The position numbers and the translations under genes are program-made. From an uncultured Gammaproteobacteria bacterium (GTDB lineage Bacteria; Pseudomonadota; Gammaproteobacteria; Pseudomonadales; Pseudohongiellaceae), in the NCBI GenBank assembly GCA_913031035.1, contig CAJWGN010000005.1, positions 1-59,560 of the forward strand: DNA of 59,560 bases, read 5' to 3'. Below the pieces are notes generated by a model that worked only from the letters and a program-made list of their open reading frames with translations, did no database searches and had not been told where the DNA came from. Shown piece by piece: positions 7,919-29,234 of this stretch; position 1 is the stretch's first letter, and the number at the start of each line of letters is the position of its first letter.

Positions 7919-10663
7919 ATGGAAAAACTTCTCATTTCTCTGAGTGATGGATTCGCTCAGATTCCAAACAAAGTCCTGCGCTTTCGCAGCGCCGTGTTAT
8001 CTGGATTGCTAGTGTTAACGACCTTCATGGTTTATGGGGCCGTCACTCGCACCGAGCTGGACATGACCACTGACAGTTATCTAGATCAGTCAGACCCAGC
8101 TATTTCTGCCCTGAACGAATACCGGCGACAATTCGGCAGCGACGACTCGGTATTTTTGGTGTATCGAGCCAAGGACGGGGATGTATTCTCCCGCGCCTCT
8201 CTCACTGCCGTTCAAAAACTTACTCAAGATCTGCGTAATTGGCAAAACCTTGATCCCGCAGACTACCCTGATGAAATCAACGGTATTGCACCCGATTTCA
8301 ACGAGTTAAACCATATTCGCCGCATCCAATCTATCGCCAATGTCCGCTATCAGGAGAACCAAGGCGACACGCTCCTCTCCAAACGCTTGGTACCTGCGTT
8401 GCTGCCCGAATCCGATGAAGAACTAGCCCAGATCAAAGCCAACGCCCTAGCTCAAAAAGATTATCTGCTAGCATTCTATTCCGCAGATGCTCGCTACGGC
8501 GCCATCATGATTCAAACTGATTTTGGTGCTCAACCGTTAATAGACTATGTGTCTGCGGTTGATGACGCTGAAATCACCTTGGATGACAGTTTCGGTGACT
8601 TTGGTGCTTTCGATAGCGACGCCAGTTTTGATCTAGAATTTGATGAGAGCGCCGCTATCCAAGAGGTCATATTTGAACCTGTAAATATCCTCGGCTATAC
8701 CAATTTCCATATCGCCAGCAAAGCCCTTTACGACAGCTACACCGACACCTTTGATTTCTTTCCGGTGGGCAATCCACCGATGATGGAATTTATGATGCAG
8801 GTACTAAACCAGATGACGGTTTTGGGCGTCGTAATGGTTTTGATTTTCACCGGATTGTTGTGGATTTTGTTTCGATCTTTTAGTGCCGTTCTGTGGCCTA
8901 TGGTGACTATCGCCGCTAGCCTCGCATGGACTTGGGGAATCACTGTTTGGCTGGGCGTGGCAGTTTCTCAAATGATCTCACTTACCGTGCTTTTAGTGTT
9001 TGCTGTAGGCATTGCCGACTGTGTTCATGTAATGAGTGCCTATTTTTCTTTTAGGCGCAGCGGTATCGAACACTATGAAGCCCTATCCAAGTCCTACGGC
9101 AAGACGGGCTTAGCAATAATGGTCACCACATTAACTACCATGTGCGGAGTGCTCGCCTTAACGACATCAGATCTCCTGCCAATTCAAGTGTTTGGTTTAA
9201 TGTCAGCCTTCGGCGTCGTCATGGCGTTTTTCTTCACCATCATCTTACTCCCAATACTTTTGGATCTATGGCATCCGGGTGCGCCAGAATCTGGAGATTT
9301 AAGCTTTGCGGATAAAATGGGCCAAAAGTGGACTGATCTCCATACCGGCAAAAAGGCAGCGATAACCCTCGCTTACCTAGTCGCGGTTTATGGGTTGCTA
9401 GGGGGTTTTGTCGGCACTTATATTGTCTTAATTTCTAGCATGACCTATGTCGTAGTTAATTGGCAAAAACAAATCCTTACCTTCGTGCCTTACCTTGTCG
9501 CCAAGCGCCCTTGGTTGATTTTAGGGATATTTGCCACCGTATTTGGTCTATGTGCCTACGGCACCAGCCAAGTAAAAATAGACACCAACATGACCGAGCT
9601 CACCCGCGAGGATAGCGCGCTTAATCAGGCCTACGATATCGTGGATGAAAACATGGCTGGCGCTCAATCGATGGTGATAATGGTAGACACGAAAACTACC
9701 GACGGCCTGCTAAATCCAAAGCTGTTAAAAGCCATAGATGATTTTCAAACCCTAATCGAGCAGAGAGACAGCGAACAAGTAACACGAACGAACTCACTGG
9801 CGAATGTTGTTAAAGACACAAATGAAATCATGAACGATGACAATCCTGCTTTCTACGCGGTACCTGAATCAGAGCAGATGATTTCCCAGTTACTCTACTT
9901 GTTTAACAGCGCAAACCCTGAAGACCGCCGAAGCCTTGTCTCTGATGACTATAGCCGATCTCATATCACGCTAAATATTTACAACGCCGGCTCATATCAA
10001 TATAAGTTATTTTTTGACCAAATAACAAAAGACATTGAGACATTTTTCGGCCCTCTAGAAGAAGAGTTTCCTGAGTTGGATGTCTATCTCACCGGCTCAA
10101 TGGCGTTGATAATGCGCATGGCTGATGAAGTTGCCCAATCACAATTTGATAGCTTTGCACTGGCGATTGGGGTCATCAGCGTCATCATGGTGTTAACCCT
10201 TGGCTCAATACAGGGGGGGCTACTGGCGATGATTCCCAATATTATTCCGGCTTTACTGGGCTTCGGCTTAATGGGCCTCATGGGTATTCCTCTGGATACA
10301 GACACCCTGCTAATAGCCCCCTTAATTATTGGTATCGCTGTCGATGACACTATTCATTTTATGACCCATTACCGGATAGAGCTTATCCGCACTGGCAGTA
10401 TCAGCGAGTCCCTTCGCATCACTATCTTAGACGTTGGTCAGGCGGTCATGTTTACCACTATGGTGCTGGGGCTAGGCTTTGCCTTACTGAGCTTCTCTGA
10501 CTATCTTGGCATGGCAAAAATGGGATTCTTTGGTGCGGCGGCAATTTTCGTCGCCCTGCTTTGCGACCTTTTCTTGATTCCTGCAATGATAATGATATTC
10601 AAACCCACCTTTGGTGTTAAGAACGCTGATACTCGAATTACTTTCATGGAGAGACCCACATGA
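7919..10663 (+). CDS. MMPL/RND-superfamily exporter
   Basis: 914 residues with the RND duplication: TM1 (about 26-44), a large periplasmic loop (45-295), five TMs to about 440, a middle hydrophobic stretch, a second loop (about 555-755) and five more TMs. The Asp-containing TM4-like segments LVFAVGIADCVHVM (about 360) and LIIGIAVDDTIHFM (about 805) carry the proton-relay residues of MMPL permeases. Such proteins move lipids or hydrophobic compounds from the inner membrane using proton flow. Residues 215-243 are an unusual acidic run of Asp, Phe and Ser. The stop overlaps the next ATG (ATGA), giving strong coupling to the LolA-like and DUF1302 genes. A TATAAT box lies at 7862-7867. Confidence 0.9.
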   Translation: MEKLLISLSDGFAQIPNKVLRFRSAVLSGLLVLTTFMVYGAVTRTELDMTTDSYLDQSDPAISALNEYRRQFGSDDSVFLVYRAKDGDVFSRASLTAVQKLTQDLRNWQNLDPADYPDEINGIAPDFNELNHIRRIQSIANVRYQENQGDTLLSKRLVPALLPESDEELAQIKANALAQKDYLLAFYSADARYGAIMIQTDFGAQPLIDYVSAVDDAEITLDDSFGDFGAFDSDASFDLEFDESAAIQEVIFEPVNILGYTNFHIASKALYDSYTDTFDFFPVGNPPMMEFMMQVLNQMTVLGVVMVLIFTGLLWILFRSFSAVLWPMVTIAASLAWTWGITVWLGVAVSQMISLTVLLVFAVGIADCVHVMSAYFSFRRSGIEHYEALSKSYGKTGLAIMVTTLTTMCGVLALTTSDLLPIQVFGLMSAFGVVMAFFFTIILLPILLDLWHPGAPESGDLSFADKMGQKWTDLHTGKKAAITLAYLVAVYGLLGGFVGTYIVLISSMTYVVVNWQKQILTFVPYLVAKRPWLILGIFATVFGLCAYGTSQVKIDTNMTELTREDSALNQAYDIVDENMAGAQSMVIMVDTKTTDGLLNPKLLKAIDDFQTLIEQRDSEQVTRTNSLANVVKDTNEIMNDDNPAFYAVPESEQMISQLLYLFNSANPEDRRSLVSDDYSRSHITLNIYNAGSYQYKLFFDQITKDIETFFGPLEEEFPELDVYLTGSMALIMRMADEVAQSQFDSFALAIGVISVIMVLTLGSIQGGLLAMIPNIIPALLGFGLMGLMGIPLDTDTLLIAPLIIGIAVDDTIHFMTHYRIELIRTGSISESLRITILDVGQAVMFTTMVLGLGFALLSFSDYLGMAKMGFFGAAAIFVALLCDLFLIPAMIMIFKPTFGVKNADTRITFMERPT

Positions 10664-11550
10664 ACCACTCAAAATTTAGACTGTTGTCAGCGGCGGTTTT
10701 GCTCACTGTTTCAACTTCATTAACCGCGCAGAAATTAACCGGTTTAGAAATCATGCAGAAGGTGGAAGAGTTTCAACGCTCCACTTCAGATTCAGCATTC
10801 AATCGTATGCAGTTATCAACCTGCAAATTTGGCATAAAAAATAGCAAAATTACCTGCGCTGAGAGACCCCGTATAAAGTCTCTAGAATCTGTTGGCAAAA
10901 ACTTTGGTGCCAACTTAAAAGATACCAAAACTGTCACTATCGTATTAGAACCGGCCTCCGAACGCGGCATCGGCATGCTTAGCTTCGCCTATGATGATAG
11001 CGATCAAGACAATGAGACTTGGCTATATTTGTCTGCAATGGGGCGGATCAAACGTATCGCAAGTGGCAACTCAGACGATGATTCAGAGCCCGCTTCAGTG
11101 TTTGGGTCTGAGTTTACAACCGAGGACACTGACACCGGCAAGCTTGAAGAGTATTCAATTAACGTAGTCGAGGACACCCAAGAATCGGGTCGAGAGGTTT
11201 GGAAAATAGACATGATTCCCAATGCCGACCAGGCCCGAAAATCTCGCTATTCTAAAACCGTTGTCTATATCGACAAAGAGCGCTTTGTCTCTTTGCGAAC
11301 TGAGATGTACGACCAGTATGAAAAAGAAATAAAGCGCTTGCTGTCCTCAAAGGTTGAAATGGTGGACGATGTTTGGATGGCTAGATCCTTAACAATGATG
11401 AACCTTGTCACCAATCGCCTATCGAATATGGCGATACTAGAAATTAATACTGGCATCAATGTCGACGATGAGTTTCTAACTCAGCGCACTCTTAGCGATG
11501 TGGCCTTTCGCGAAGCCGAATTGCAAAAGCTGCGCGAACAAGTTCAATAG
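10660..11550 (+). CDS. LolA-like outer-membrane lipoprotein-sorting protein
   Basis: 296 residues with a Sec signal peptide (about 1-23, cleavage near TAQ). The mature part looks like the LolA_like beta-barrel-with-lid family that accompanies MMPL exporters: LTGLEIMQKVEEFQRS at the start, FAYDDSDQDNETWLYLSAMGRIKRI, SVFGSEFTTEDTDTG and EVWKIDMIPN. These are thought to carry a lipid or lipoprotein across the periplasm. ATG 10660 overlaps the exporter stop by four bases, with GAGAG upstream, and the DUF1302 gene follows after 17 bases. Two cysteines in the mature N-terminal part may pair. Confidence 0.85.
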   Translation: MNHSKFRLLSAAVLLTVSTSLTAQKLTGLEIMQKVEEFQRSTSDSAFNRMQLSTCKFGIKNSKITCAERPRIKSLESVGKNFGANLKDTKTVTIVLEPASERGIGMLSFAYDDSDQDNETWLYLSAMGRIKRIASGNSDDDSEPASVFGSEFTTEDTDTGKLEEYSINVVEDTQESGREVWKIDMIPNADQARKSRYSKTVVYIDKERFVSLRTEMYDQYEKEIKRLLSSKVEMVDDVWMARSLTMMNLVTNRLSNMAILEINTGINVDDEFLTQRTLSDVAFREAELQKLREQVQ

Positions 11551-11567
11551 CTAGGACTAAAAGCTAA

Positions 11568-13022
11568 GTGCACCAATATTATAAGCGTCTATTTAAACCA
11601 TCTGAACTCTTGCGTTTGTTAATCCTTGCAATCAGCCTGGCCGTCACGGGCATAAGCTCAGGACAAGAAGATGCTTCGCAAGAACTCGATGACAATCTAA
11701 GTTTTGACGGAGACTTCACCTTCGACGATGACCTTTTCGGCGGCGGGTTTGAATTTGAGGAAAGTGAACCCGAGAATGCCTGGCTTAACAATTTTACTAT
11801 TCGTCTGACCCAGCAGATTTACGGCCAGGTCAATAATCACTCTGTCGAACCGATTCCCGGCTACAGCTTCTTCCGAAAATCAGAAATTGAAAACAATCGC
11901 CTTGGTATCAACATTCGTTATCAAAACCCCTTCGCCGCCGGCTGGCTATTGCAGGTGAGCGGACAATCGCGCATGTATTTAAAAAATGACTATCAATATG
12001 AAGCCAACAACGACAATCTCGAGGTTGAAAGTCGAATCAACGAATTGTTCGTGCAACGCAGCTTCGGCCAGCACAGCATTAAATTTGGTCGACAAACCGT
12101 GGTGTGGGGGGAAACCCTAGGCAATTCGGTGCTGGATATAATCAATACTAGTGAGTTTCGAGACCTAAGCATTATTGATATTGAAGATGCTAGACGCAAT
12201 CAGCTCATGCTTGCCTGGGATTATTTTGGTGACGACAGCACGGTCTCTAGTTTCATCAATCTGTTCCCCGAATTCAATCCGGCTCCAGTCCGAGGCAGCC
12301 CGTTCTTTTTTGAACCTGAATTTAACCTCACCGACTACCGCCGTGAAGGCGACGTATTAATAGAGGTTGGTAGTCAGTGGCGGAAATCTTTCGAGGGCAG
12401 TGATATCGCAATTATGGCCGCCTATCTTTTTGAGAACCAGCTGCGCTATGAAGACCCTGTAAACAACATTGGTAATTCTATCGCTGAAAAGAACGACTTT
12501 TTGCTTTTAGGGCTTAGTGCTAACAGGGCGATAGGAAAGCTGCTGTTGAATTTTGACTTGGCCTTTAGCCGAGGGATCACCGCCGATAGCTTTAGTTTTC
12601 CGGGCACCAATAGTATTGGCCAGGCTATAGACTTAAAGAAAAATCAGATAGGCACATCTTTTGGTTTCGAATACGCTGTCTCCAATGATCAAAGCGTGAG
12701 CCTTGGCATTCAAGCGCAGAAGCTTTTGAATGAAGACGAAGGCTTGTTGCCCGGACAATCTTTAACTAATGATGGAGTGTTTGGAAGCTGGTTAGTTCGC
12801 TACAGCAATTCGCTTAAAAATGGTGACCTTGTGCTTTCTGCAACGTTCCAGGGGGATTTAAATGCTGAGTCTCTTTTGGCCTTGGTGGGACTTGATTATT
12901 CGATAAGTGACAACTGGGCCATTAACGCTCAAATCATCAGCATAAATGCCGCAACCGGCTCGCCATTGTTGTTCTTTGACGAGGACCTCCGACTCGGCAC
13001 GACTCTCTCCTACTCTTTCTAA
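11568..13022 (+). CDS. DUF1302-type outer-membrane protein
   Basis: 484 residues from a GTG start with a signal peptide (hydrophobic LLRLLILAISLAVTGISS, about 14-31). The segment IKFGRQTVVWGETLGNSVLD (about 170) is the hallmark of DUF1302, and the rest is alternating beta strands ending in aromatic YSF, as expected of an outer-membrane barrel. Residues 34-68, just after the signal, are an acidic Asp/Phe/Gly run resembling the one in the exporter loop. As third gene of the operon it likely forms the outer-membrane end of the export route; the cargo is unknown. AGGAC 11 bases before GTG is a weak ribosome site, so translation may depend on coupling. Confidence 0.82.
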   Translation: MHQYYKRLFKPSELLRLLILAISLAVTGISSGQEDASQELDDNLSFDGDFTFDDDLFGGGFEFEESEPENAWLNNFTIRLTQQIYGQVNNHSVEPIPGYSFFRKSEIENNRLGINIRYQNPFAAGWLLQVSGQSRMYLKNDYQYEANNDNLEVESRINELFVQRSFGQHSIKFGRQTVVWGETLGNSVLDIINTSEFRDLSIIDIEDARRNQLMLAWDYFGDDSTVSSFINLFPEFNPAPVRGSPFFFEPEFNLTDYRREGDVLIEVGSQWRKSFEGSDIAIMAAYLFENQLRYEDPVNNIGNSIAEKNDFLLLGLSANRAIGKLLLNFDLAFSRGITADSFSFPGTNSIGQAIDLKKNQIGTSFGFEYAVSNDQSVSLGIQAQKLLNEDEGLLPGQSLTNDGVFGSWLVRYSNSLKNGDLVLSATFQGDLNAESLLALVGLDYSISDNWAINAQIISINAATGSPLLFFDEDLRLGTTLSYSF

Positions 13023-18493: not shown

Positions 18494-21472
18494 ATGTTAA
18501 ACCGTTTTCATTCGCCTCACATTGCGCGCTCAATTGCTGCCGCATTATTGCTAGGTTCATTCGCCGCCTGTTCTGATCAGTCGCCACCTCCGGCTAGCGA
18601 TGCTGCAGAGACAGCAGAGCCTGCTGTGGAGATAGGCTATCGCCGGCTAAATTCACCCAATGAAAATGACCCATTAAACGCAGCCATTTATGAGCTCGAC
18701 AATGGACTCAAAGTCTACCTGACAGAGAATCACGAAGAACCGCGCTTTTATGCCGAGATTGCAGTTAAAGCTGGCTCTCTTCATGATCCCGCTGATGCTA
18801 CCGGCCTAGCCCATTATCTCGAGCATTTAATGTTCAAAGGCAACCAAAATATGGGGTCTTTAAATTATGCAGCCGAAAAGCCTCATTTGGACCGAATTGT
18901 CGAACTGTATGAACAACATTTCACAGAAACTGATGAGACAGTGCGAGCCGACATTTATCGTCAAATAAATATCGAAGCGCAAGAGGCATCCCAATATGTT
19001 GCGACTAACGAGCTTACTAAGCTGTTTTCTGGCATGGGCGGCACCAACTTAAATGCCCACACCTCGTTTGAGGAAACCGTTTACAAGATAGGCCTGCCTT
19101 CGAATCGACTCGAGCAGTGGGCAGCGATTGAAGCGGACCGCTTTATTGATCCGGTATTCCGTTTATTTCATACTGAACTTGAAACTGTTTATGAAGAAAA
19201 AAACCGGACGCTAGATAACCCCGGCAGAATCATAAACACCGCTGTTAATGACCTTGTTTTTAAAGTCCATCCCTATGGTCAACAGCCGACTATAGGCACC
19301 GCTGAGCATCTGAAAAACCCTTCCTTGGTTTATATCCAAAATTATTTTGAGACTTACTATGTCCCAAATAACATGGCCATCTTTATTAGTGGCGACATTG
19401 ACACCGATATAGCAATCGAACTTATAGCTGAAAAATTCGCCCATTGGGAAGCCAAACCATTGCCGGAAATCGGCCCGTGGAATGAAGTTCCTTTATCAGG
19501 TTCTGAACGCGCAACAGTGCGCTACCCTGGAGAAGAAGAAGTTCAACTGGCTTTTAGAACTGCCGCCAATGGCAGTCCTGACAAGGAAGCCCTAACGCTA
19601 GTTGATATGATTCTAGACAATCGAACCGCTGGCTTGATTAACCTTAACCTAAACCAGCAACAGAAAGTCTCAAGCGCTGGCTCTTCACCTATGTTCCTTA
19701 ACCAGGCTGGGGTCCAGTACCTTTACGGCACGCCGAAACAAGATCAAAGTCTTGAAGAGGTAGAACAGTTGCTGCTTGAACAGTTAGCCGCAGTCAAAGC
19801 CGGCGAGTTTGAAGACTGGATAATCACAGCGATTGTTAATGACTTTAAAAAGAATGCTAAAGCAAGTCAGGAGTTTAATACCGCGCGAGTCTCAATGATG
19901 CGCCAGTCCTTTATAGAAGACTCCGATTGGGACTACAGCATTGCCGAGCTTGACCGTATGGAACGGCTATCCAAGGATGACGTCATCGATGTCGCTAACA
20001 AATATTTTGGCAATGAATATGTGGCTGTTTATAGAATTGATGAACAGCATGAGATCCCAACAGTCGCGAAACCGCAAATAGAGCCTATTGTCATTGACTC
20101 TTCTCTGCAATCGACTTTTGCAGCAAATATACTGGCCATGCCCTTTTCTGAAATTGAGCCGGTTTTTGTTGAAGCTGACAAAGATTATCGCTTGATTGAA
20201 TTTGCGGATGGGGTGGAGCTTTACTATGCACCCAACCCACTCAACGACCTTTTCACTTTCTCTGTCAGCGTAAATGTCGGCACTGAGGAGAATGAAAAAC
20301 TGAATCTAGCTGCTTCTCTTATGGATGTTGCCGGAACCGACACTCTAAGCAATGAAGAACTGCAAAAAGAGTGGTACCGCATGGGCACAGAATTTAATTT
20401 TGGCGCCGGCGAAAATTCATCTGGTTTTTCTCTTGCCGGGCTCGATGAACAGTTTGAAAACAGTGTTGCCATGATGATGGAGTTGATTGAAAACCCTGTT
20501 GTTGATGAGCAAACATTAGACGACCTTAAAGGCATAATGCTCAAGGCACGACAAGATCGTAAAAGCTCGCCACCAGCGATTGCTCAAGCCTTGTACATGT
20601 ACAACCGCTACGGCGACGAATCTCCGATGCTGGAGGCACTGACCTCAGCAGAGATCCAAGCGACAACAGTTGAGGAGTTAGTCTCCTTACCTGCCGGCCT
20701 TCTAGGCTATCAACAGACCCTAGCTTACACCGGCTCAATGCCGATAGAGGATGTGGTTGCTGCACTGAGACGCGAATATGTATTAGAAGGTGAGCTGAAG
20801 GAAACGCCAGCCTATCGTTTTCGTACGGCTAGAGAATTTACGACAAACGAAGTGTATGTTGTAAATCAGAAATCTGCCCAAGCGCAAGTGCGAATTGAGT
20901 TCCCCGAAAACGAATACGACCGTTCAAAGTCAACTATGGCTTCAATATATAACAGTTATTTCGGCAGCGGAATGTCCAGCGTGGTTTTTCAGGAACTACG
21001 AGAGGCAAGAGCGTTGGCCTACTCAGCTGGTGCAAGTTATTCCCAAGGCAGACGAGCCAATGCCGAAAACTTAATGCTGGGCGTCATCGGTACGCAGACA
21101 GATAAGACAGTGGACGCATTGAATGCCTTTATTGATCTTATCGACAATATGCCTGAGTCTGAGCAAAGTTATGATGAAGCGGTCAACTCTTTAGTTAACC
21201 GCTACCGCACGTCAAAATTAAGCTTCCGTGAAGTGATCGGTGCCGTTCGAGGCTGGGAGCGATTAGAACTTGAAGGCGACCCACGGCAGCAAACCTATGC
21301 AGAGCTCCAAGCTGCAGAGTTTTCTGACTTACTTGAATTTCAACAGACCAATGTTAAAGACCGATCTAAGCTAATTTCCATAGTCGGTGATCTATCTATT
21401 ATCGATGTTGCGGAATTAGAGCAATTCGGCACGGTCAAACAAATCCAAGTGGATGATCTGTTTGTTGATTAA
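18494..21472 (+). CDS. M16-family (pitrilysin-like) zinc peptidase lipoprotein
   Basis: 992 residues. A signal with lipobox FAAC (Cys26) predicts a lipid-anchored envelope protein. The inverted zinc motif HYLEH is at residues 107-111, with the downstream acidic ligand region ETVYEEKNRTLD, so the N-terminal module is catalytic. A second M16 module begins near residue 600 and contains the R/Y region ELREARALAYSAGASYS, as in pitrilysin or processing peptidases. It likely degrades peptides in the periplasm. The open frame extends upstream to 18413, but ATG 18494 follows GGGAG at good distance and reveals the signal. It precedes the ABC/PDZ/FG-GAP operon by 116 bases and may be functionally linked, though a hairpin lies between. 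Confidence 0.9.
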   Translation: MLNRFHSPHIARSIAAALLLGSFAACSDQSPPPASDAAETAEPAVEIGYRRLNSPNENDPLNAAIYELDNGLKVYLTENHEEPRFYAEIAVKAGSLHDPADATGLAHYLEHLMFKGNQNMGSLNYAAEKPHLDRIVELYEQHFTETDETVRADIYRQINIEAQEASQYVATNELTKLFSGMGGTNLNAHTSFEETVYKIGLPSNRLEQWAAIEADRFIDPVFRLFHTELETVYEEKNRTLDNPGRIINTAVNDLVFKVHPYGQQPTIGTAEHLKNPSLVYIQNYFETYYVPNNMAIFISGDIDTDIAIELIAEKFAHWEAKPLPEIGPWNEVPLSGSERATVRYPGEEEVQLAFRTAANGSPDKEALTLVDMILDNRTAGLINLNLNQQQKVSSAGSSPMFLNQAGVQYLYGTPKQDQSLEEVEQLLLEQLAAVKAGEFEDWIITAIVNDFKKNAKASQEFNTARVSMMRQSFIEDSDWDYSIAELDRMERLSKDDVIDVANKYFGNEYVAVYRIDEQHEIPTVAKPQIEPIVIDSSLQSTFAANILAMPFSEIEPVFVEADKDYRLIEFADGVELYYAPNPLNDLFTFSVSVNVGTEENEKLNLAASLMDVAGTDTLSNEELQKEWYRMGTEFNFGAGENSSGFSLAGLDEQFENSVAMMMELIENPVVDEQTLDDLKGIMLKARQDRKSSPPAIAQALYMYNRYGDESPMLEALTSAEIQATTVEELVSLPAGLLGYQQTLAYTGSMPIEDVVAALRREYVLEGELKETPAYRFRTAREFTTNEVYVVNQKSAQAQVRIEFPENEYDRSKSTMASIYNSYFGSGMSSVVFQELREARALAYSAGASYSQGRRANAENLMLGVIGTQTDKTVDALNAFIDLIDNMPESEQSYDEAVNSLVNRYRTSKLSFREVIGAVRGWERLELEGDPRQQTYAELQAAEFSDLLEFQQTNVKDRSKLISIVGDLSIIDVAELEQFGTVKQIQVDDLFVD

Positions 21473-21588: not shown

Positions 21589-22515
21589 ATGGTCCACAGT
21601 TCAAAGAATCTTGCACTGAGCGCAAGCAACTTATGCAAAAGTTATGGCGATCATAAGGTTCTCAACAACCTCGAGTTAAGCGTTGAAAGCGGTGCAATTC
21701 ACGGCTTAGTCGGGCTCAATGGATCAGGAAAAACCACTACGTTAGAATGCATCCTGGGTCTTCAACCTTTTGCTGACGGAGACATCAGCTTACTGGGATA
21801 CGCTCCCAACAGGTTACATGAAGCAAGAGGCAGAATTGTTTCCATCTTCGACTCTCCAAGCCTCAACCCTAATCTCACAGTTCGTCAAACCCTCGAACAC
21901 GGGGCTCTGCTCTGCCAAAGACCTGTTCGCAAACCTGCAGAACTAGAAACGCTTTTAGGAATTGAACGATTCTCAAATTTTAGAATTAAAACCCTTTCTC
22001 TCGGCAACAAGCGTCGGGCGTCCATTGCCCAAGCACTGCTAGGTGAGCCTGAACTAATATTGTTGGACGAACCATTCAACGGCCTTGACGCAGGTGGTGT
22101 TGATGATGTCTTGGCACTTATCAAACAGCTTAATGAGGACGAAGGCACTAGCTTCTTATTGTCTTCTCATCAGCTGCCTTACTTGGAGCAGATTTGCAGT
22201 CATCTTTCAATTCTTCATCAAGGCAAAATCGTCATTAGTGACAGAGTTGAAAAACTATTATCTGGACATCTTCCTGTTGCACTGCTGCACTGCGCGAAAG
22301 TGGATGAGGCAATAGACGCAATCAAAATAATGGCGGGAGTTAATTACCAAAAGACCGATCGAGATGGATTCATTCATGTCGAACTACTCGCGCTAGATTC
22401 TGCCGAACTGAACAGAAACCTAATCCACCTAGGAATATCGGTTGGGGAATTGCGAATAAATCGAGCCTCCCTGTCGGCGTTGTTTAGAACGGTTACCAGT
22501 GAGTCTGCGTCATGA
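21589..22515 (+). CDS. ABC transporter ATP-binding protein
   Basis: 308 residues. Walker A is GLNGSGKTTT (about residue 44), the signature is LSLGNKRR instead of LSGGQ, and Walker B is LILLDEPFNGLD, followed by the switch His in LLSSHQL. The variant signature is common in the CcmA/drug-export (ABC-2) class. The C-terminal 80 residues form an extra domain typical of these ATPases. It powers the permease encoded next, whose ATG overlaps its stop by four bases. ATG 21589 lacks a strong ribosome site. It begins the coupled five-gene operon running to 27530. Confidence 0.93.
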   Translation: MVHSSKNLALSASNLCKSYGDHKVLNNLELSVESGAIHGLVGLNGSGKTTTLECILGLQPFADGDISLLGYAPNRLHEARGRIVSIFDSPSLNPNLTVRQTLEHGALLCQRPVRKPAELETLLGIERFSNFRIKTLSLGNKRRASIAQALLGEPELILLDEPFNGLDAGGVDDVLALIKQLNEDEGTSFLLSSHQLPYLEQICSHLSILHQGKIVISDRVEKLLSGHLPVALLHCAKVDEAIDAIKIMAGVNYQKTDRDGFIHVELLALDSAELNRNLIHLGISVGELRINRASLSALFRTVTSESAS

Positions 22516-23369
22516 ATAAAATTGTCCTAGCGACTAGACTAGAAGCCTATGTCGGTCTTCGAAGTTTTAGCAGTAAATTGTTGATCGTCACCCCTTCTCT
22601 GGTGGCTGCAATACAACTTTTGCTCGCCAAAATTACTGAAACCGGACAAGAATCTAGAGATAATTTGCTTGGCCGCAGCAACGTCTCTGACGAATTCTCA
22701 ATCAACGCCTATGGATACTTTGTCGATGGACTGTCCACTGGACTGACAATCCTTGGACTGTTGCTAGTATCCCTGGCAGCCTATAGCTTTAGTTACGACC
22801 GAGATATTGGCTCAGTTAGGCACCTCATCATAAGAGGCATAAGCCGAACAACCGTGATTATTGGCAAGCTGATTTATATTCACCTATTGGCGCTGGCCTC
22901 GATCATAACCTTGGTTCTGAGTAGCTACTTTTTAAGTGGAAACCTTTGGGATTTTGGCCCTATTGTCGAAGATGGCTTCGAGCTTATTAGTGAAGCTGAA
23001 ATTCGCTCCGAAATCGAACTTGGTTTAAGACTCGCTTTGCTGCCATTGCCTGCAGCCATAGGCTTTGGCGTATTAATCTCAGTATTAACTCAGTCGGCTA
23101 CGCAAGCGCTAAGCACAGCCATCGGCTTAACCTTGACAATTGATGTGTTCAAATCAACACTCGGCGATCTAGCTTATTATCACTATGCCAACTTTCAACC
23201 ATCCCTGCTTGATCAGTCTTATTTAAAAGACGTCAGCCGGCTTGTGCGAGGGTACTCGGATGTTTTAGTAGATGAACGCTTTCTCGACTTCAATTTATGG
23301 GTTCCGCTGCCCACAGCAATAATTTTTATTGTGCTAACATTAATCGCGGTGCAAAGGATAAAGTTATGA
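22512..23369 (+). CDS. ABC-2 type transporter permease
   Basis: 285 residues with about six membrane segments: one near 25-45, then GLSTGLTILGLLLVSLAAYSF (about 73-93), an amphipathic DRDIGSVRHLIIRGISRTTV loop, and helices near 118, 180, 203 and 265. A periplasmic part lies between the first two. The RHLIIRGISRT coupling helix resembles ABC-2 permeases of the NosY or gliding-motility type. It partners the upstream ATPase (ATGA overlap) and is followed at once by the PDZ lipoprotein, whose ATG also overlaps. The cargo is unknown. Confidence 0.85.
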   Translation: MNKIVLATRLEAYVGLRSFSSKLLIVTPSLVAAIQLLLAKITETGQESRDNLLGRSNVSDEFSINAYGYFVDGLSTGLTILGLLLVSLAAYSFSYDRDIGSVRHLIIRGISRTTVIIGKLIYIHLLALASIITLVLSSYFLSGNLWDFGPIVEDGFELISEAEIRSEIELGLRLALLPLPAAIGFGVLISVLTQSATQALSTAIGLTLTIDVFKSTLGDLAYYHYANFQPSLLDQSYLKDVSRLVRGYSDVLVDERFLDFNLWVPLPTAIIFIVLTLIAVQRIKL

Positions 23370-24307
23370 AATTGCAATTTGTCGGCCTACTTTGCATGCT
23401 TACCCTGCAGCACTGTGTGAGCTATGAGCCTTTAGTGCTAGCCCCAGCAATTACTCTGTCTCCTGAGCTTGTATCTCTTAGCTCAAACGGCGGCAATGAT
23501 GACAGAGTGGATTTTGGTTTCGAGGTTGGCGTCAACGAATCAGATTCTCTGTTTAATATCGAGGTCCTACCTGGCGTCAGAGTAAGAACCATAGAGCCAA
23601 GTGGCCCCGCTAATTCAGCTGGACTGAAGGTAGGCGATATCATTCTTAGTATCGATGACACCCCCACCGATCACCCCGATACTGTTACGGCCTTACAGCA
23701 AAGTGAAAATAATGATCTGAACTTTGAGCTAAAAGTAAGGCGTGGCACTGTTGTGTTTCAAGCTGGCATGTTGGCTAGAGCATTAAGCCCATCGATTGCT
23801 CCTCTGGAACTCTATCGAGCTGACCCCATCGCGACTAAAGCGGGCTATCAAACCGAACTTGTACAAATTGCTGGAAGGCCGGGTTTGGCAGCCGCCAAAA
23901 TTATTGAATTTTTCCCCAATAGCCCGCTTCCAAGCGCCGGCCTTACTGAGGGCGACATCGTCATCGCACTGAATGGTGTTGAGCTTAATTCTGCTCAAGA
24001 TCTTATTAATCGATTGATTCAAGATCACGAGCTTGGCAGCTCGGTCGAATTTACTGTCTTTAGTGCTGGCAATATCCGCCCGGTAACTGTCCAGCTATGG
24101 AATCCAGGGCGGCGTATCAGCAAGTTAAGCTTCTCCCCATTGCTAAACTACGAAACAGGATTTAACCCTCAGACAACCAAATTTACCTTGCTTAATCTCT
24201 GGTTGTTTTCACTCTATTCTTTCAACCAAGTTGAAGAAGAGAAATCTCACAGCATCCTCGGCCTGATCAATTATTCTTCAGACTTAGGTGAACTTAACGA
24301 AGAATAA
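23366..24307 (+). CDS. Double PDZ-domain envelope protein
   Basis: 313 residues from ATG 23366, which overlaps the permease stop (ATGA) and follows AAAGGAT. The N-terminus is a short signal ending at Cys17 (LQHC); His before the Cys makes the lipobox imperfect. Two PDZ domains are clear from GPANSAGLKVGDIIL (about residue 87) and SPLPSAGLTEGDIVIALNG (about residue 200). There is no protease domain, so it is probably a binding scaffold in the periplasm that recognises peptide C-termini. The place between an ABC exporter and two propeller proteins suggests it links cargo or partner proteins to the transporter. An upstream start at 23297 would lie inside the permease gene. Confidence 0.85.
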   Translation: MKLQFVGLLCMLTLQHCVSYEPLVLAPAITLSPELVSLSSNGGNDDRVDFGFEVGVNESDSLFNIEVLPGVRVRTIEPSGPANSAGLKVGDIILSIDDTPTDHPDTVTALQQSENNDLNFELKVRRGTVVFQAGMLARALSPSIAPLELYRADPIATKAGYQTELVQIAGRPGLAAAKIIEFFPNSPLPSAGLTEGDIVIALNGVELNSAQDLINRLIQDHELGSSVEFTVFSAGNIRPVTVQLWNPGRRISKLSFSPLLNYETGFNPQTTKFTLLNLWLFSLYSFNQVEEEKSHSILGLINYSSDLGELNEE

Positions 24308-24309
24308 AT

Positions 24310-25881
24310 GTGAATACCCTGACTCAACATACCCTTTCTCAGAGCGTTCATATCTGCCTCTGTTTTGCGCTAAGCATTTCCTTCGCCGGGACCACTGTTG
24401 CGCAAAGTAACTACAAAGCCTTTGAGCTCAATAGGGAAAGTAACTGGGACAGCCTCGCCACTGAGGATATGAACGGCGATGGTTTGAAGGACCTCGTGTT
24501 CTCCCATTTTGATCAAACCAGCGGTAGAGAAATTCATATCCATCATCAAACCAGCGACGGTAGTTTTTCGGCACTGCCGCAGCGGATCGAAGTAAAAACT
24601 GAAATTATTGCGGTTGGGTTCGCTGATCTGCGCAGTGACCCCGGAACTGAGTTACTACTTTTTGCAAATGCCGGTGTGTTTAGTTTGTCATCTTTGATTG
24701 AAGGCTATGCTGGGAATTTAAAACCCTTGCTTGAATGGGAGCTCATAGCCACCGTGCCCGATTTGGAGCGAGTCTCCTTTGTGCTATCAAACACCGACAT
24801 TAATAATGACGGCTATGTTGATTTACTGCTTCCTGGGCGTGACAGCTACGGCGTATTTATGGGCGGGGCCAATGAGACATTCCAATTACTCTCACAGATC
24901 AGCACTGCTAACGAGCAAAGTAATTCTGCCATTACAAGAGAACGGGGCATCTCTGCAGACCTAGGAATTAGCGCCGAAGAAGGCATAAGCATTAAGCTCT
25001 CCATAGAGACCAAAACACCCTATCAGGACTTCATCGAGCAATGGGACAAACCAGACGAGGATACTGAGACTTTACTAAGAACTGAAAACTGGATGCAAAA
25101 TGCAGTTTTATCTAGGTTAAACGACGATGAACTGCTTGATATTCTCTATCTGAATGTGGGCTCGGATGGCTTAGGCCAATTAAATATTCATTACCAAAAT
25201 GCGAGCAGCGGCTTCAATGAGGACGCTGACTGGACCGGTTCAATAGATGTCCGAGGCGAAATTGAACTAGCCGATGTTAATGGCGATAAACTTACCGATC
25301 TTATTCGAGTTTCCAACGATGGAAATGAAGCGGATGCAAGGCTCTATATCAATGAAGGAGGTCAATTTAATCTTGAAAAGCCTTCTCAAGTAATGCGCTT
25401 TTCTGGCTACGATGTACGCTTGGACTTTGTCAAATTGACCGAGGATGCTCTGCCGATCCTGAGTGTGAACTATTATACTATTCCGGTGGTCGGTGCTATT
25501 CGCAATGCCAGCCTGAATCGAGTACAGCTATTGTTCGATCACAACCTTGAGGACACGGGCCAAGTTTTCAATCGAAGGCCCGACGCCCGTATCGAAGAAA
25601 CTTTTTCCGCTGCCAATGTTAAGGGCCTAAGTGAACAACTCTCTCTGCGTCACGATGTTGATGGAGATGGGCGCAATGACGGATTATATATTACCGAAGA
25701 TGGTTATATCGCCGCGAAGAAAATGGACTCGAGCCTGCTTATTGCCGATGAGGCTTTCTGGGAATACATAGCTGCGAAAAGCGTGTTTGAGTTTAAAGTT
25801 GTTAAGCTAAATGAAGATGACCTTCCTGACCTAATTTTAACTCACGGCAGTAGCAGCACCGTTCTGGTGGCGCTCCCATGA
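24310..25881 (+). CDS. FG-GAP/VCBS repeat beta-propeller protein 1
   Basis: 523 residues from GTG 24310, with a signal peptide (about 1-31, ending TTVAQ). Several calcium-loop repeats are seen: DMNGDGLKDLVF (about 48), DINNDGYVDLLLPG (about 160), DVNGDKLTDLI (about 320) and DVDGDGRNDGLYI (about 450), plus a degenerate LNEDDLPDLILT near the end. They point to an extracytoplasmic FG-GAP propeller, a fold for binding proteins or glycans. There is no membrane anchor or catalytic motif. It starts 2 bases after the PDZ gene stop and overlaps the next gene by four bases. Its last third contains a VFNRRPDARIEETF segment that the paralogue next to it also has. Confidence 0.8.
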   Translation: MNTLTQHTLSQSVHICLCFALSISFAGTTVAQSNYKAFELNRESNWDSLATEDMNGDGLKDLVFSHFDQTSGREIHIHHQTSDGSFSALPQRIEVKTEIIAVGFADLRSDPGTELLLFANAGVFSLSSLIEGYAGNLKPLLEWELIATVPDLERVSFVLSNTDINNDGYVDLLLPGRDSYGVFMGGANETFQLLSQISTANEQSNSAITRERGISADLGISAEEGISIKLSIETKTPYQDFIEQWDKPDEDTETLLRTENWMQNAVLSRLNDDELLDILYLNVGSDGLGQLNIHYQNASSGFNEDADWTGSIDVRGEIELADVNGDKLTDLIRVSNDGNEADARLYINEGGQFNLEKPSQVMRFSGYDVRLDFVKLTEDALPILSVNYYTIPVVGAIRNASLNRVQLLFDHNLEDTGQVFNRRPDARIEETFSAANVKGLSEQLSLRHDVDGDGRNDGLYITEDGYIAAKKMDSSLLIADEAFWEYIAAKSVFEFKVVKLNEDDLPDLILTHGSSSTVLVALP

Positions 25882-27530
25882 GCATCTTAGGCAAACTAAC
25901 TTTATTAGTACTGAGCCTGAGCGCTTACTCATCCTTCGCCGCATTACCTCAATTTAAAGAGCAGAGCTTTTCATTTCCCCCCACCGCTGAAAAATTACTG
26001 GTAGCGGATTTCAACGACGATGAACTAAACGATCTTCTAGTGGTGACTGACGTTAGTTTGCGTATTTACTTTCAGCGAGACTCTGGTTTTGATTTTGAGA
26101 ATGGGTTTAGCGAAATTGATTTTGCCGGTCGCTCCGTTGGTTGGGATCTATCAAACAATTACCAAGGCGATGGTGGTCTCAGCCTGATAGCGGTTGTCGA
26201 TGGCAATCAAGTGCTCGCCTGGCATGTCGAAGCGGAAGAAATAAAAGGTCCAAGCACAGTCACCAGCGATATTGATGGCTATCTTAGCAAAGGTATCAAC
26301 CGCCTCCATTTCTCCCGAGACATAAACGGCGACGGATTAGAGGACTTGATTATTCCTGGTGCAGGTCAGCTACAAATTCACATGAATGAGGGCAACGGGG
26401 GTTATCAGACTCCTCTGGCTATTCAGTCGGACTTTAGAATAAGAACCAATCTCGACTCCAGCCAATTAGAGAGGCGCATTGGTCAAGCCGTTCGAATCCC
26501 CCTGATGGAGCTGCGCGATGTGAATTCTGACGGAGCCAATGACCTCATTTCCCGAACTGAAGAGTTACTTGATGTCTTCTTGGCCAACGCAACAGGGCCA
26601 GCCTATTTCTCAGCAACACCGAGTTATTCGGTAAATATAGCTGAAATTGAAGCACGCCTCGGCGATTTTGATATCGACAACTTGGATTTCTCCAACTTGA
26701 CTGGGATTCTAGCGCTCGGGCATGAAGAACTGCTCGAAGATGTCGACGGCGATGGCATTGATGATTTGCTACTTAGGGAAGGCGGCAAAGTCTCCCTTTT
26801 TGGCGGCACCATCAACGGAATGGCGATGGAGCAACCTAGACAGGTTCTTCGCTCTAGTGGCAATATCCTCAGCACCTTCCTGTTTGATGAAAACAACGAT
26901 GAGCTGAAAGACCTTTGGCTTTGGCGAGTTGAGCCTATCTCCGTTGGCGACATCTTCGTGTGGTTAGCGCTTTCTGGCAGTATTGCCATAGAAGCCTTCA
27001 TCTATCCAAACGAAGGCGAACGCTTTGCCCGCCGCCCAGCCCGAAAAATAACCGTTAGCCTTAAGTTCCCCTCAGTGATCCGACTTGCAAACAGTGTCAG
27101 AGGGGTGCGACAAGTGTCGGCAACTGACGCCGAGGAGGACGTCGTTAGTACCACAGGTAACTTTAATGATGAGCCCGCTAGAGCCGACCTGTTAGCGCTA
27201 ATTGATAATCAGTTAGCACTCTTTTTCAACAGCATAGAGCCACAAGATGACGAAACTGAGTTCCTTGGCGCGCTAGGATATAGCCGTGATCAAGACAGTT
27301 ATGAAATTGATATTAGAGAAATCGTCGACAATGCTCTAGAAGACATTAATCAAAGACGATCGAGCATCGAGTCGCTCAGCCCTGACCTGACAATTCCCCT
27401 ATCGTTAAACACCTCCGTGAACGACATTATCACTGTTAAAATAAATGGCGATGACACTGACGATATCTTTGTCTTCGAAGCTGGGATAAGTGGTCAGATA
27501 GCAGGTTTACTGCTACTCTCGGGCGAATAG
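25878..27530 (+). CDS. FG-GAP/VCBS repeat beta-propeller protein 2
   Basis: 550 residues with a signal peptide (about 1-21, ending SSFAA). The repeats match the first protein in order: FNDDELNDLLVV (about 45), DINGDGLEDLIIPG (about 150), DVNSDGANDLIS (about 215), DVDGDGIDDLLLREGG (about 287), ENNDELKDLWLW (about 335) and NGDDTDDIFVFE near the end. The segment RFARRPARKITVSLKF corresponds to VFNRRPDARIEETF in the neighbour, so the two probably arose by duplication. It is exported and likely calcium-binding. ATG 25878 overlaps the upstream stop, ending a chain of four overlapping or abutting junctions from the ATPase onward. Confidence 0.8.
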   Translation: MSILGKLTLLVLSLSAYSSFAALPQFKEQSFSFPPTAEKLLVADFNDDELNDLLVVTDVSLRIYFQRDSGFDFENGFSEIDFAGRSVGWDLSNNYQGDGGLSLIAVVDGNQVLAWHVEAEEIKGPSTVTSDIDGYLSKGINRLHFSRDINGDGLEDLIIPGAGQLQIHMNEGNGGYQTPLAIQSDFRIRTNLDSSQLERRIGQAVRIPLMELRDVNSDGANDLISRTEELLDVFLANATGPAYFSATPSYSVNIAEIEARLGDFDIDNLDFSNLTGILALGHEELLEDVDGDGIDDLLLREGGKVSLFGGTINGMAMEQPRQVLRSSGNILSTFLFDENNDELKDLWLWRVEPISVGDIFVWLALSGSIAIEAFIYPNEGERFARRPARKITVSLKFPSVIRLANSVRGVRQVSATDAEEDVVSTTGNFNDEPARADLLALIDNQLALFFNSIEPQDDETEFLGALGYSRDQDSYEIDIREIVDNALEDINQRRSSIESLSPDLTIPLSLNTSVNDIITVKINGDDTDDIFVFEAGISGQIAGLLLLSGE

Positions 27531-27595: not shown

Positions 27596-27841
27596 ATGAA
27601 AAAAACCGTATGGACTTCGTTCGGAGTAGCGTTAGTCCTTGTTTTTGCTATTTCAGAAGTGGGTTATTACTTTACCGGCATTTATGTCGATGTCCTGCTC
27701 CGTGTCGCGCTGGTTTTTGGCGTCACCATGGGCGCTACCATCTTTGCTACGTCTATCGATCTTATTCAAAATCTCGAAAAAGAAAAGCCACTTTCAGGTA
27801 ATGTTAGAGACACATTAGGGCCAGATCGCCGCAAAGATTAA
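27596..27841 (+). CDS. Small two-TM membrane protein
   Basis: 81 residues that I do not recognise. Two hydrophobic helices (about 7-27 and 34-54) are followed by a charged tail (NLEKEKPLSGNVRD). AGGTGG lies 5 bases before the ATG, so it looks translated. It follows the FG-GAP operon after 65 bases and could be its last member or a separate gene. Confidence 0.6.
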   Translation: MKKTVWTSFGVALVLVFAISEVGYYFTGIYVDVLLRVALVFGVTMGATIFATSIDLIQNLEKEKPLSGNVRDTLGPDRRKD

Positions 27842-28024
27842 CAAAAAACTGAATTATTGTGATTTCAAAGTAAGTATGATTTCATCCTCCGGTAAGTTGG
27901 TTTTTTGGAGTCTCAGCGACATAGCACAGATAAATTTTACTTCATATGGAGCCGAGTTTTGTATAGCGGGGGTGTTGATTCAGTTTTAAATTTCGCCTTT
28001 TACCCCTAGAACCCTAATTTCTAT

Positions 28025-28193
28025 GCTCTTTGGTTTTTACGGCCTTTGGTTTTTACGGTCTTTGGTTTTTACGGCCCTCGATTTCTGCGCCCTTTGATTT
28101 CTAAACTCTATAATTTCTGCGCCCTATGACCTCTAACGCCCTATGACCTCTAACGCCCTATGACTTTTAAAGCCCTATGATTGCTAAGCCCTT
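28025..28193. repeat. Degenerate 15-17-bp tandem repeat array leading into a start codon
   Basis: About ten units run head to tail. The first three are of the type CTTTGGTTTTTACGG (28025-28073). The rest are variants of GCCCTATGACCTCTAAC, with two exact copies at 28121-28137 and 28138-28154 and close ones at 28155 and 28172. An earlier half-unit ACCCTAATTTCTAT precedes them. The last partial unit (GCCCTTATG) holds the ATG of the TAXI receptor at 28194. The rest of the 27842-28193 gap shows no gene. Confidence 0.88.
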
Positions 28194-29234
28194 ATGAAAA
28201 AACTACTAATCTACGCCGTTCTGACACTAGCGATTGGTGCCTGTACCGATGAGCTAAATCGATCTAGACCTTACATTTTGACCACAGCAACAACTGGCGG
28301 CACTTACTACCCTGTTGGCGTTGCCCTGGCCACCATCGCCCATGCCCAGCTAAATGAAACGAAAGGGATTTCACTCACCGCCATCAGTTCTGCAGGCTCA
28401 CTTGAAAACGTCAAGCTGCTGCGAGATAACCAAGCCCAATTCGCGCTGTTGCAAGGCCCCTTTGGCGCTTGGTCTTGGAATGGTGAAGGTCCCGTAAGCA
28501 AACCCCAGACGCATGTGCGAAGCGTAAGTGCGATGTGGCAGAACGTTGAGCACTTTGTCTTGCTTTCAGAGCTAGCTAAAACCGGTGAGATAATGGATCT
28601 GGACGACCTTGATGGCGAACGATTTGTTCTCGGCGCAAGAAATTCAGGCGCCGAACAGACAGGCCGTTTCATTCTCGATACTCTGGGCATCGATTACGAA
28701 AACAAATTCAATCTAGCGTATATGGGCTATGGCCCAACCACTAGCGCAATTCAAGATGGCAATATAGTCGGCATGAACATCCCGGCAGGTGCTCCAGTTA
28801 GCTCAATAACGCAGGCCTATGCGATGCTAGGCGATCGTCTGACAATATTGAATTGGACTCAAAAGACATTAGATAAACTTAACGCAAAATACCCTTTATG
28901 GGACTGGTACGATTTTCCACCGGGCACCTACCCAAACCAAACTAAATTGATACGCACAATAGGCTCACCTAATGTGCTTGTTACACGCAGAGACATCCCC
29001 GAGGACGTGGTTTATAACGTAACAAAAGTGATCTGGGAGAATTTGGCTACCTTGCAGGAGATTCATGGGGCAACAAAAGACATGCGCCTTGAAATCGCAA
29101 TTGATGGATTAGGGGCGCCTCTGCACCCTGGCGCCATACGTTACTACCGTGAAGTTGGCCTAGCAATTCCTGAGCGACTCATTCTGCAATCGGACTTCGA
29201 AGAGCCGTCTGTTGATGAAGTAGTAAGCAACTAG
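28194..29234 (+). CDS. TAXI-family TRAP transporter substrate-binding protein
   Basis: 346 residues. The signal ends in lipobox IGAC (Cys17), so it may be a lipoprotein. The family motif TATTGGTYYPVG (about residues 31-42) is clear, followed by ISSAGSLENVKLLRDNQAQFAL, DDLDGERFVLGARNSGAEQT and IPAGAPVSSI. It binds a small acid in the periplasm for the fused permease encoded 33 bases downstream. The ligand is unknown (glutamate has been described for one TAXI protein). No Shine-Dalgarno sequence is present: the start codon lies in the tandem repeat phase, which is odd. Confidence 0.9.
   Translation: MKKLLIYAVLTLAIGACTDELNRSRPYILTTATTGGTYYPVGVALATIAHAQLNETKGISLTAISSAGSLENVKLLRDNQAQFALLQGPFGAWSWNGEGPVSKPQTHVRSVSAMWQNVEHFVLLSELAKTGEIMDLDDLDGERFVLGARNSGAEQTGRFILDTLGIDYENKFNLAYMGYGPTTSAIQDGNIVGMNIPAGAPVSSITQAYAMLGDRLTILNWTQKTLDKLNAKYPLWDWYDFPPGTYPNQTKLIRTIGSPNVLVTRRDIPEDVVYNVTKVIWENLATLQEIHGATKDMRLEIAIDGLGAPLHPGAIRYYREVGLAIPERLILQSDFEEPSVDEVVSN

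Follow-up and report, generated by a model that had tools for sequence, protein, structure and literature searches.

The window analyzed here, the whole 59,560-nucleotide stretch at positions 1 to 59,560 of contig CAJWGN010000005.1 (forward strand; assembly GCA_913031035.1), comes from an uncultured gammaproteobacterium of the Pseudohongiellaceae, a family of mostly marine bacteria, and carries on its plus strand five closely coupled genes for an ATP-binding cassette (ABC) ATPase, an ABC-2 permease, a double-PDZ lipoprotein and two exported FG-GAP proteins, here called FG1 and FG2. Reading of the open reading frames (ORFs) of the window showed that successive genes of the five overlap by ATGA at three junctions and stand 2 bases apart at the remaining one. 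The ATPase gene (21589-22515) matched ABC_tran and, on the same stretch, AAA_21, both above the curated gathering cut-offs that define all Pfam assignments given below. It overlaps the permease gene (22512-23369, ABC2_membrane_2), which in turn overlaps the gene of the PDZ protein (23366-24307), whose product matched PDZ models in two stretches and has a C-terminal beta segment. FG1 (24310-25881, FG-GAP_3), with a GTG start, follows after the 2-base gap and overlaps FG2 (25878-27530, FG-GAP_3). Two genes on the same strand flank the five: that of an M16 zinc peptidase, a lipoprotein (18497-21472, alternative start 18413; Pfam M16 and M16_C), with 116 bases between its stop and the ABC start, and that of an 81-residue protein with two predicted transmembrane (TM) segments (27596-27841). 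The ORF and Pfam checks agreed with the preliminary description of this locus in the ORFs, their coordinates and overlaps, the 116-base gap and the two-TM follower. Neither promoter-like sites (10, versus 14.1 in shuffles) nor terminator-like sites (11, versus 10.1) were in clear excess.

The order of these genes turned out to be strongly conserved. M16, ABC, permease, PDZ, FG1 and FG2 follow one another on the same strand in 38 of 39 family loci; the remaining locus, L080, is cut by a contig end, and in locus L060 the ABC ORF is split, the order being otherwise kept. A set of 80 loci, taken from 108 relatives retrieved by a two-peptide pattern scan and overlapping with the first set in genomes, comprised 59 loci with all seven genes in order (three of them with split ORFs), nine with the six large genes in which the two-TM gene was not detected and 12 whose contig starts within the cluster, and the order from M16 to FG2 was kept in all 68 loci that extend back to M16. 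An overlap of 1 or 4 bases joins the ABC gene to the permease gene in 35 of the 38 loci measured, the FG1 and FG2 genes overlap in 29 of 39, and the two-TM gene was detected in 35 of 39. Loci L071-L079 have M16-ABC gaps of 4-24 bases, the other gaps being at most 91 bases; since the start codons of the relatives were chosen by rule (with M written at GTG and TTG starts), such distances are approximate. The recurrence of one order in 38/39 and 68/68 loci indicates that the five-gene arrangement is more than chance. The preliminary description would have been refuted by homologs lying apart in most genomes, or by propeller genes without conserved linkage to any ABC transporter; neither was observed, and in every family locus where the contig extended far enough, the two propeller genes were found as paired neighbors of the ABC-2 and PDZ genes.

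These data bear on the simplest alternative, namely, that the ATPase and permease are an ABC-2 exporter of the usual drug or lipid type, lying by chance beside unrelated envelope genes. Both proteins do belong to large generic exporter families, but the linkage holds over five genera whose proteins are about 40-60% identical, and the genes also share their presence and absence across the family, as described below, so that we consider this explanation very improbable.

FG1 is single in the window's genome and was found in 36 of the 37 genomes of its genus (own genome counted), being missing in G015, which is 89% complete. FG2 was present in 36 of 59 sampled family genomes, including all 13 of the window's genus and 10/11, 11/11, 1/1 and 1/1 of four other genera, and in none of the 22 sampled genomes (0/6, 0/5 and 0/11) of three family genera. 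The permease was absent in 20 of 20 tested family genomes without FG2 (19) or FG1 (G015), and its query matched, as a control, all eight unit-bearing genomes of the order sample. Likewise, the PDZ protein was absent in 19 of 19 such genomes tested, two weak partial matches apart, with controls positive in 7/7, and a close M16 ortholog was missing in 18 of 19, where the best matches reached 23-28% identity. The absence tests covered the permease, the PDZ protein and M16; FG1 and the ATPase were looked for in G067, and FG1 also in G015.

The exception for M16 was G067, a 100% complete genome of genus g25. Here exactly the five genes are gone, and the M16 gene, whose product is 59% identical to that of the window, is followed directly by a complete two-TM gene. 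The left neighbors of the locus are kept, and its right neighbors are the same as in G087. Because 10 of the 11 sampled members of this genus carry FG2, a deletion in G067 is a simpler reading than late insertion elsewhere. Since this genome lacks exactly the five genes, they form a unit, and M16 and the two-TM gene a separable pair, on the evidence of this one genome; the five-gene unit is apparently retained or lost in its entirety. The preliminary description had the peptidase, placed before the group, process or clear products of the proposed complex; it is indeed, together with the two-TM protein, a constant neighbor, but G067 retains both without the five. The junction of the complete M16 and two-TM genes of G067 lies in locus L207, at flipped coordinates of about 10190-10500.

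We also searched beyond the family. No full-length match outside it was obtained with the permease profile in samples of the order (244 genomes) and class (321 genomes), with the PDZ-protein profile in the order sample of 244 genomes, with the FG2 profile in samples of the order (244) and class (360) or with the FG1 profile in a phylum sample of 349 genomes. These searches covered samples of species rather than all species, and the genome of the window served as their positive control, joined in the order samples by seven more family genomes; outside the phylum, the two-peptide pattern scan alone was applied, which picks up close relatives. The order sample gave weak partial matches outside the family in four genomes for the permease and in four for the PDZ protein, their surroundings not being read. 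In the class sample, a weak permease match in G443 had an ABC and a permease match in its surroundings, without a PDZ or FG-GAP match. FG-GAP proteins of two other Gammaproteobacteria, G328 and G191, scored 60.7 and 49.0 bits with the FG2 profile, and the ABC, permease, PDZ and M16 profiles found no match on the 14 and 18 kb around these FG-GAP genes. A weak match in G051 (E 2.1e-4) had no cluster at its locus, L090. As far as searched, the five-gene cluster is thus confined to the Pseudohongiellaceae. One locus with FG1 and FG2, L169 (contig CAMCRC010000055.1), comes from a record titled Klebsiella pneumoniae that is a metagenome bin, and the title is probably wrong.

The ATPase has its Walker A motif and the signature LSLGN[KR]RR in 52 of 52 sequences, and its H-loop His and Walker B motif DEPF[NS]GLD in 51 of 52, with one gap each. 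An Asp stands at the usual position of the Q-loop Gln in all 52, which is a departure from the ABC norm. With nucleotide-binding motifs and a permease partner, the pair has the features of an ABC-2 transporter, transport itself being predicted. The nearest bacterial solved chain of the ATPase was NosF (7o0y, chain B; phmmer E 1.6e-34), a match that shows homology, not function. None of the NCBIfam models listed passed its cut-off (those listed for the ATPase being the 25 highest-scoring of 192), the best scores of the ATPase being those of the lantibiotic protection model TIGR03740 (136.9 bits, cut-off 309.75) and of DrrA (121.4 bits, also below cut-off); assignment to LanFEG lantibiotic protection therefore fails. 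Of the PADLOC models of anti-phage defense systems, matches were to the ABC ATPase alone, with eight models (best mad3, E 9.6e-26), the other six proteins having no match.

The permease scored 31.7 bits against ABC2_membrane_2 (PF12679, cut-off 27.2); PF12730 remained below cut-off, and Ecs or Ppt models were not among its matches. We assigned its topology from hydropathy, which gave six TM segments, while a simple scan gave 4-7 segments in 51 relatives and six in 22 of them. Positions conserved at 98% or more made up 9/32 of periplasmic loop 2 and 12/44 of loop 3 (together 21/76), compared to 4/64 in TM1, TM3 and TM6 together. We read loops 2 and 3 as a putative docking face, figures that are also compatible with a conserved substrate path.

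The PDZ protein has the lipobox Cys17 in 52 of 52 sequences, and, with Pfam PDZ matches in two stretches, the lipobox-like signal and the two PDZ domains first described were both found. At position +2, V, I, L or A follows the Cys in 51 of the 52. Under the Lol rule, such +2 residues point to the outer membrane, where the protein is thus probably anchored; this makes doubtful, for the PDZ protein, the earlier proposal of a complex at the inner membrane face. The alignment of 51 rows, from which L166 was left out because its start call gave an over-long protein, showed that Gly51 of the presumed carboxylate loop is invariant. The model of the protein (pLDDT 83.5) consists of two HtrA-type PDZ domains and the C-terminal beta segment, and structure comparison of this model showed PDZ1 to resemble the DegS PDZ domain (Z 14.2, rmsd 2.5, 98 residues).

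FG1 and FG2 both begin with cleavable-looking signal peptides without a lipobox, as judged by eye in 26 of 51 loci of a set that leaves out truncated, N-bearing and near-identical ones. Four calcium-loop motifs were recognized in FG1, and FG2 has calcium loops too, so that both are, as described before, exported FG-GAP proteins with calcium loops. Comparison of the FG2 and FG1 profiles gave a colinear match over 8-537 and 11-509, respectively (probability 99.2, E 3.3e-19), indicating from their sequences that the two are colinear paralogs and bearing out the duplication that had been suggested for them. The F-x-R-R-P segment cited in support of it is fixed in FG2 (52/52) but looser in FG1, with only 29/52 sequences having it and the first R replaced in most of the others. 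The model of FG2 (pLDDT 81.6) is propeller-like and aligned by VIA with integrin alpha5 (Z 10.1, rmsd 3.8, 160 aligned) and with the GlcNAc-binding lectin PVL (Z 10.4, rmsd 10.9, 302 aligned), while Foldseek TM-scores were low, 0.27 in the top row. Among solved structures searched by sequence, the FG2 profile found the PVL lectin (E 0.0028), and the FG1 profile found no relative. In view of the low TM-scores and the high rmsd to PVL, the propeller assignment draws mainly on the Pfam matches, on secondary structure and on the alignment with integrin.

This likeness raises the question of whether the propellers are themselves the products of the system, that is, calcium-dependent adhesins or lectin-like proteins that the ABC ATPase, the permease and the PDZ protein would mature or place at the outer membrane. 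Besides the alignments of FG2 with PVL and integrin alpha, the export signals of both propellers, their constant pairing in the loci read and the probable outer-membrane location of the PDZ protein are in line with such a surface structure. However, no sorting tail or anchor was noticed by eye in FG1 and FG2, and the best conserved stretches of the propeller proteins are the inserts, for example the highly conserved non-repeat stretches 254-301 and 322-398 of FG2, whereas adhesins are usually variable. A surface structure is, in our judgment, unlikely, though a serious rival reading.

As for the flanking genes, the M16 peptidase has its zinc motif HYLEHL[LM]F in 52 of 52 sequences and the lipobox pattern in 50 of 51 relatives, and the two-TM protein, like two relatives, had only Pfam matches below cut-off. 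A peptidase with an intact zinc motif constantly upstream would suit a peptide exporter, in which the ABC pair would expel amphipathic peptides or signal-peptide fragments, the PDZ protein would capture their C termini and M16 would degrade them, with the propellers as accessories. The lantibiotic protection and DrrA scores of the ATPase, below cut-off as they are, lean the same way, and peptide export is reported for such pairs, namely PptAB and EcsAB. On the other hand, G067 retains M16 without the pump, the short M16-ABC gaps in L071-L079 leave no room for a precursor gene, and two conserved propellers would be left unexplained. We regard peptide export as rather unlikely, though it too is a serious rival. 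The two-TM proteins of loci L057, L064, L083, L084 and L085 are extended at the C terminus by about 80 residues, and each of the five carries two cysteines there. In the window, tandem repeats of a degenerate unit about 16-17 bases long occupy 28017-28197, between the two-TM gene and the gene of a TAXI-type binding protein, and upstream of M16, at 7919-13022, genes for MMPL-family, LolA-like and DUF1302 proteins stand in a row; G067, too, has matches to each of the three on the upstream side of M16.

Taken together, our preferred though tentative interpretation is that the five genes encode one ATP-driven envelope machine, in which the permease would act on periplasmic partners in the manner of NosFY but outside the NosDFYL system. 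In NosFY, an ATP-driven shape change has been proposed to act on periplasmic partners. By analogy, the ATPase and permease would be joined in an inner-membrane ABC-2 complex, and the two strongly conserved of its three periplasmic loops would dock periplasmic partners. One partner, the double-PDZ lipoprotein, may bind C-terminal peptides, either those of a client or those of the propellers; the propellers, both calcium-binding, could serve as a pair of scaffolds or as receptors for the client. Hydrolysis of ATP would then reshape the permease so that an envelope client is released, assembled or matured, small-drug export not being the main task. M16 and the two-TM protein would be an accessory pair with a function of its own, perhaps peptide clearing. 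In favor of this reading are the constant gene order, the joint absence of the permease and PDZ protein where a propeller gene is lacking, the loss of just these five genes in G067, the correlated distances given below, the retained ATPase motifs and the likeness of the ATPase to NosF, the conserved permease loops 2 and 3, and the HtrA-type PDZ folds with their invariant Gly51. A more specific version, a trans-envelope motor in which the ABC-2 pair acts on an envelope client through a C-terminus-reading PDZ lipoprotein and the paralogous calcium propellers, next to a separable M16/two-TM peptide-clearing pair, we hold to be possible but rather doubtful.

Several observations weigh against the envelope machine. 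The data show the gene unit, its domain content and export signals, its joint presence and absence and its loss as a block, whereas complex formation, docking, direction of work and client, like the peptide or protein handling proposed earlier, are inferred. The PDZ protein, if located in the outer membrane, would also be distant from the permease. The top NCBIfam models of the ATPase, lantibiotic protection and the DrrA exporter, fit a true exporter as well. Conservation of the permease is also seen in its coupling loop (7/27), TM4 and TM5 (8/38) and TM2 (4/21), and periplasmic loop 1 has just 1/27 conserved positions. Searched against solved structures, the permease profile gave chance matches only (best E 0.43, kinases), so that the case for NosY-like mechanics depends on the ATPase and on the Pfam family of the permease, to which NosY presumably also belongs. 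No counterpart of NosD or NosL was found among the Pfam matches of the six large proteins, which are to M16, ABC/AAA, ABC-2, PDZ and FG-GAP. Finally, the pairwise distance correlations, 0.84-0.93 among the five proteins and 0.70-0.89 with M16, agree with a five-gene unit but also follow from vertical inheritance alone.

In the literature searched, we found no description of the five-gene set, nor one joining FG-GAP, PDZ and ABC transporter with either M16 or a lipoprotein, nor a paper on Pseudohongiellaceae with FG-GAP proteins, in keeping with the initial view that no characterized system has this set. The combination thus appears undescribed, all its parts, the two-TM protein apart, being from known families. 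With HtrA/Deg proteases such as DegS and DegQ, the unit shares tandem periplasmic HtrA-type PDZ domains; its PDZ protein, however, is a lipoprotein with only PDZ models above cut-off, and because the trypsin-like catalytic domain is absent by Pfam, membership in that group fails. With integrin alpha and the PVL lectin, FG1 and FG2 share FG-GAP repeats and calcium loops, and the FG2 model a propeller match, but they are paired, exported, equipped with conserved helical inserts and set in an ABC operon. Gram-positive EcsAB and PptAB resemble the ABC pair in that an ATPase and a membrane protein are reportedly tied to peptide or proteolysis phenotypes, one Ecs abstract giving the Ecs substrate as unknown (PMC2996298); a PDZ lipoprotein and propellers are not mentioned in the titles and abstracts consulted, and the host here is Gram-negative. 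Compared with ribosomally synthesized and post-translationally modified peptide systems, the unit holds no modification enzyme by Pfam, and precursors were considered in the M16-ABC and other gaps of L071-L079 given above.

The closest likeness is to NosDFYL, with its NosF-like ATPase, ABC-2 permease, lipoprotein and periplasmic partners. According to one study, NosL is a lipoprotein, and NosFY and NosD are needed for the CuZ site (PMC7558416). Here, PDZ and FG-GAP proteins stand in place of NosD and NosL, nosZ was not among ten annotated neighbors, and membership in NosDFYL fails, the NosF-like ATPase being present but the NosD and NosL partners absent by Pfam. An unannotated operon of a widespread family has thus become a defined five-gene unit with borders marked by a natural deletion. 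If its motor acts on periplasmic partners, the unit would be a new and genetically simple case of mechanical work in the envelope by an ABC-2 system, a role so far ascribed to few of them, and PDZ and FG-GAP proteins would gain a place in a machine of this kind.

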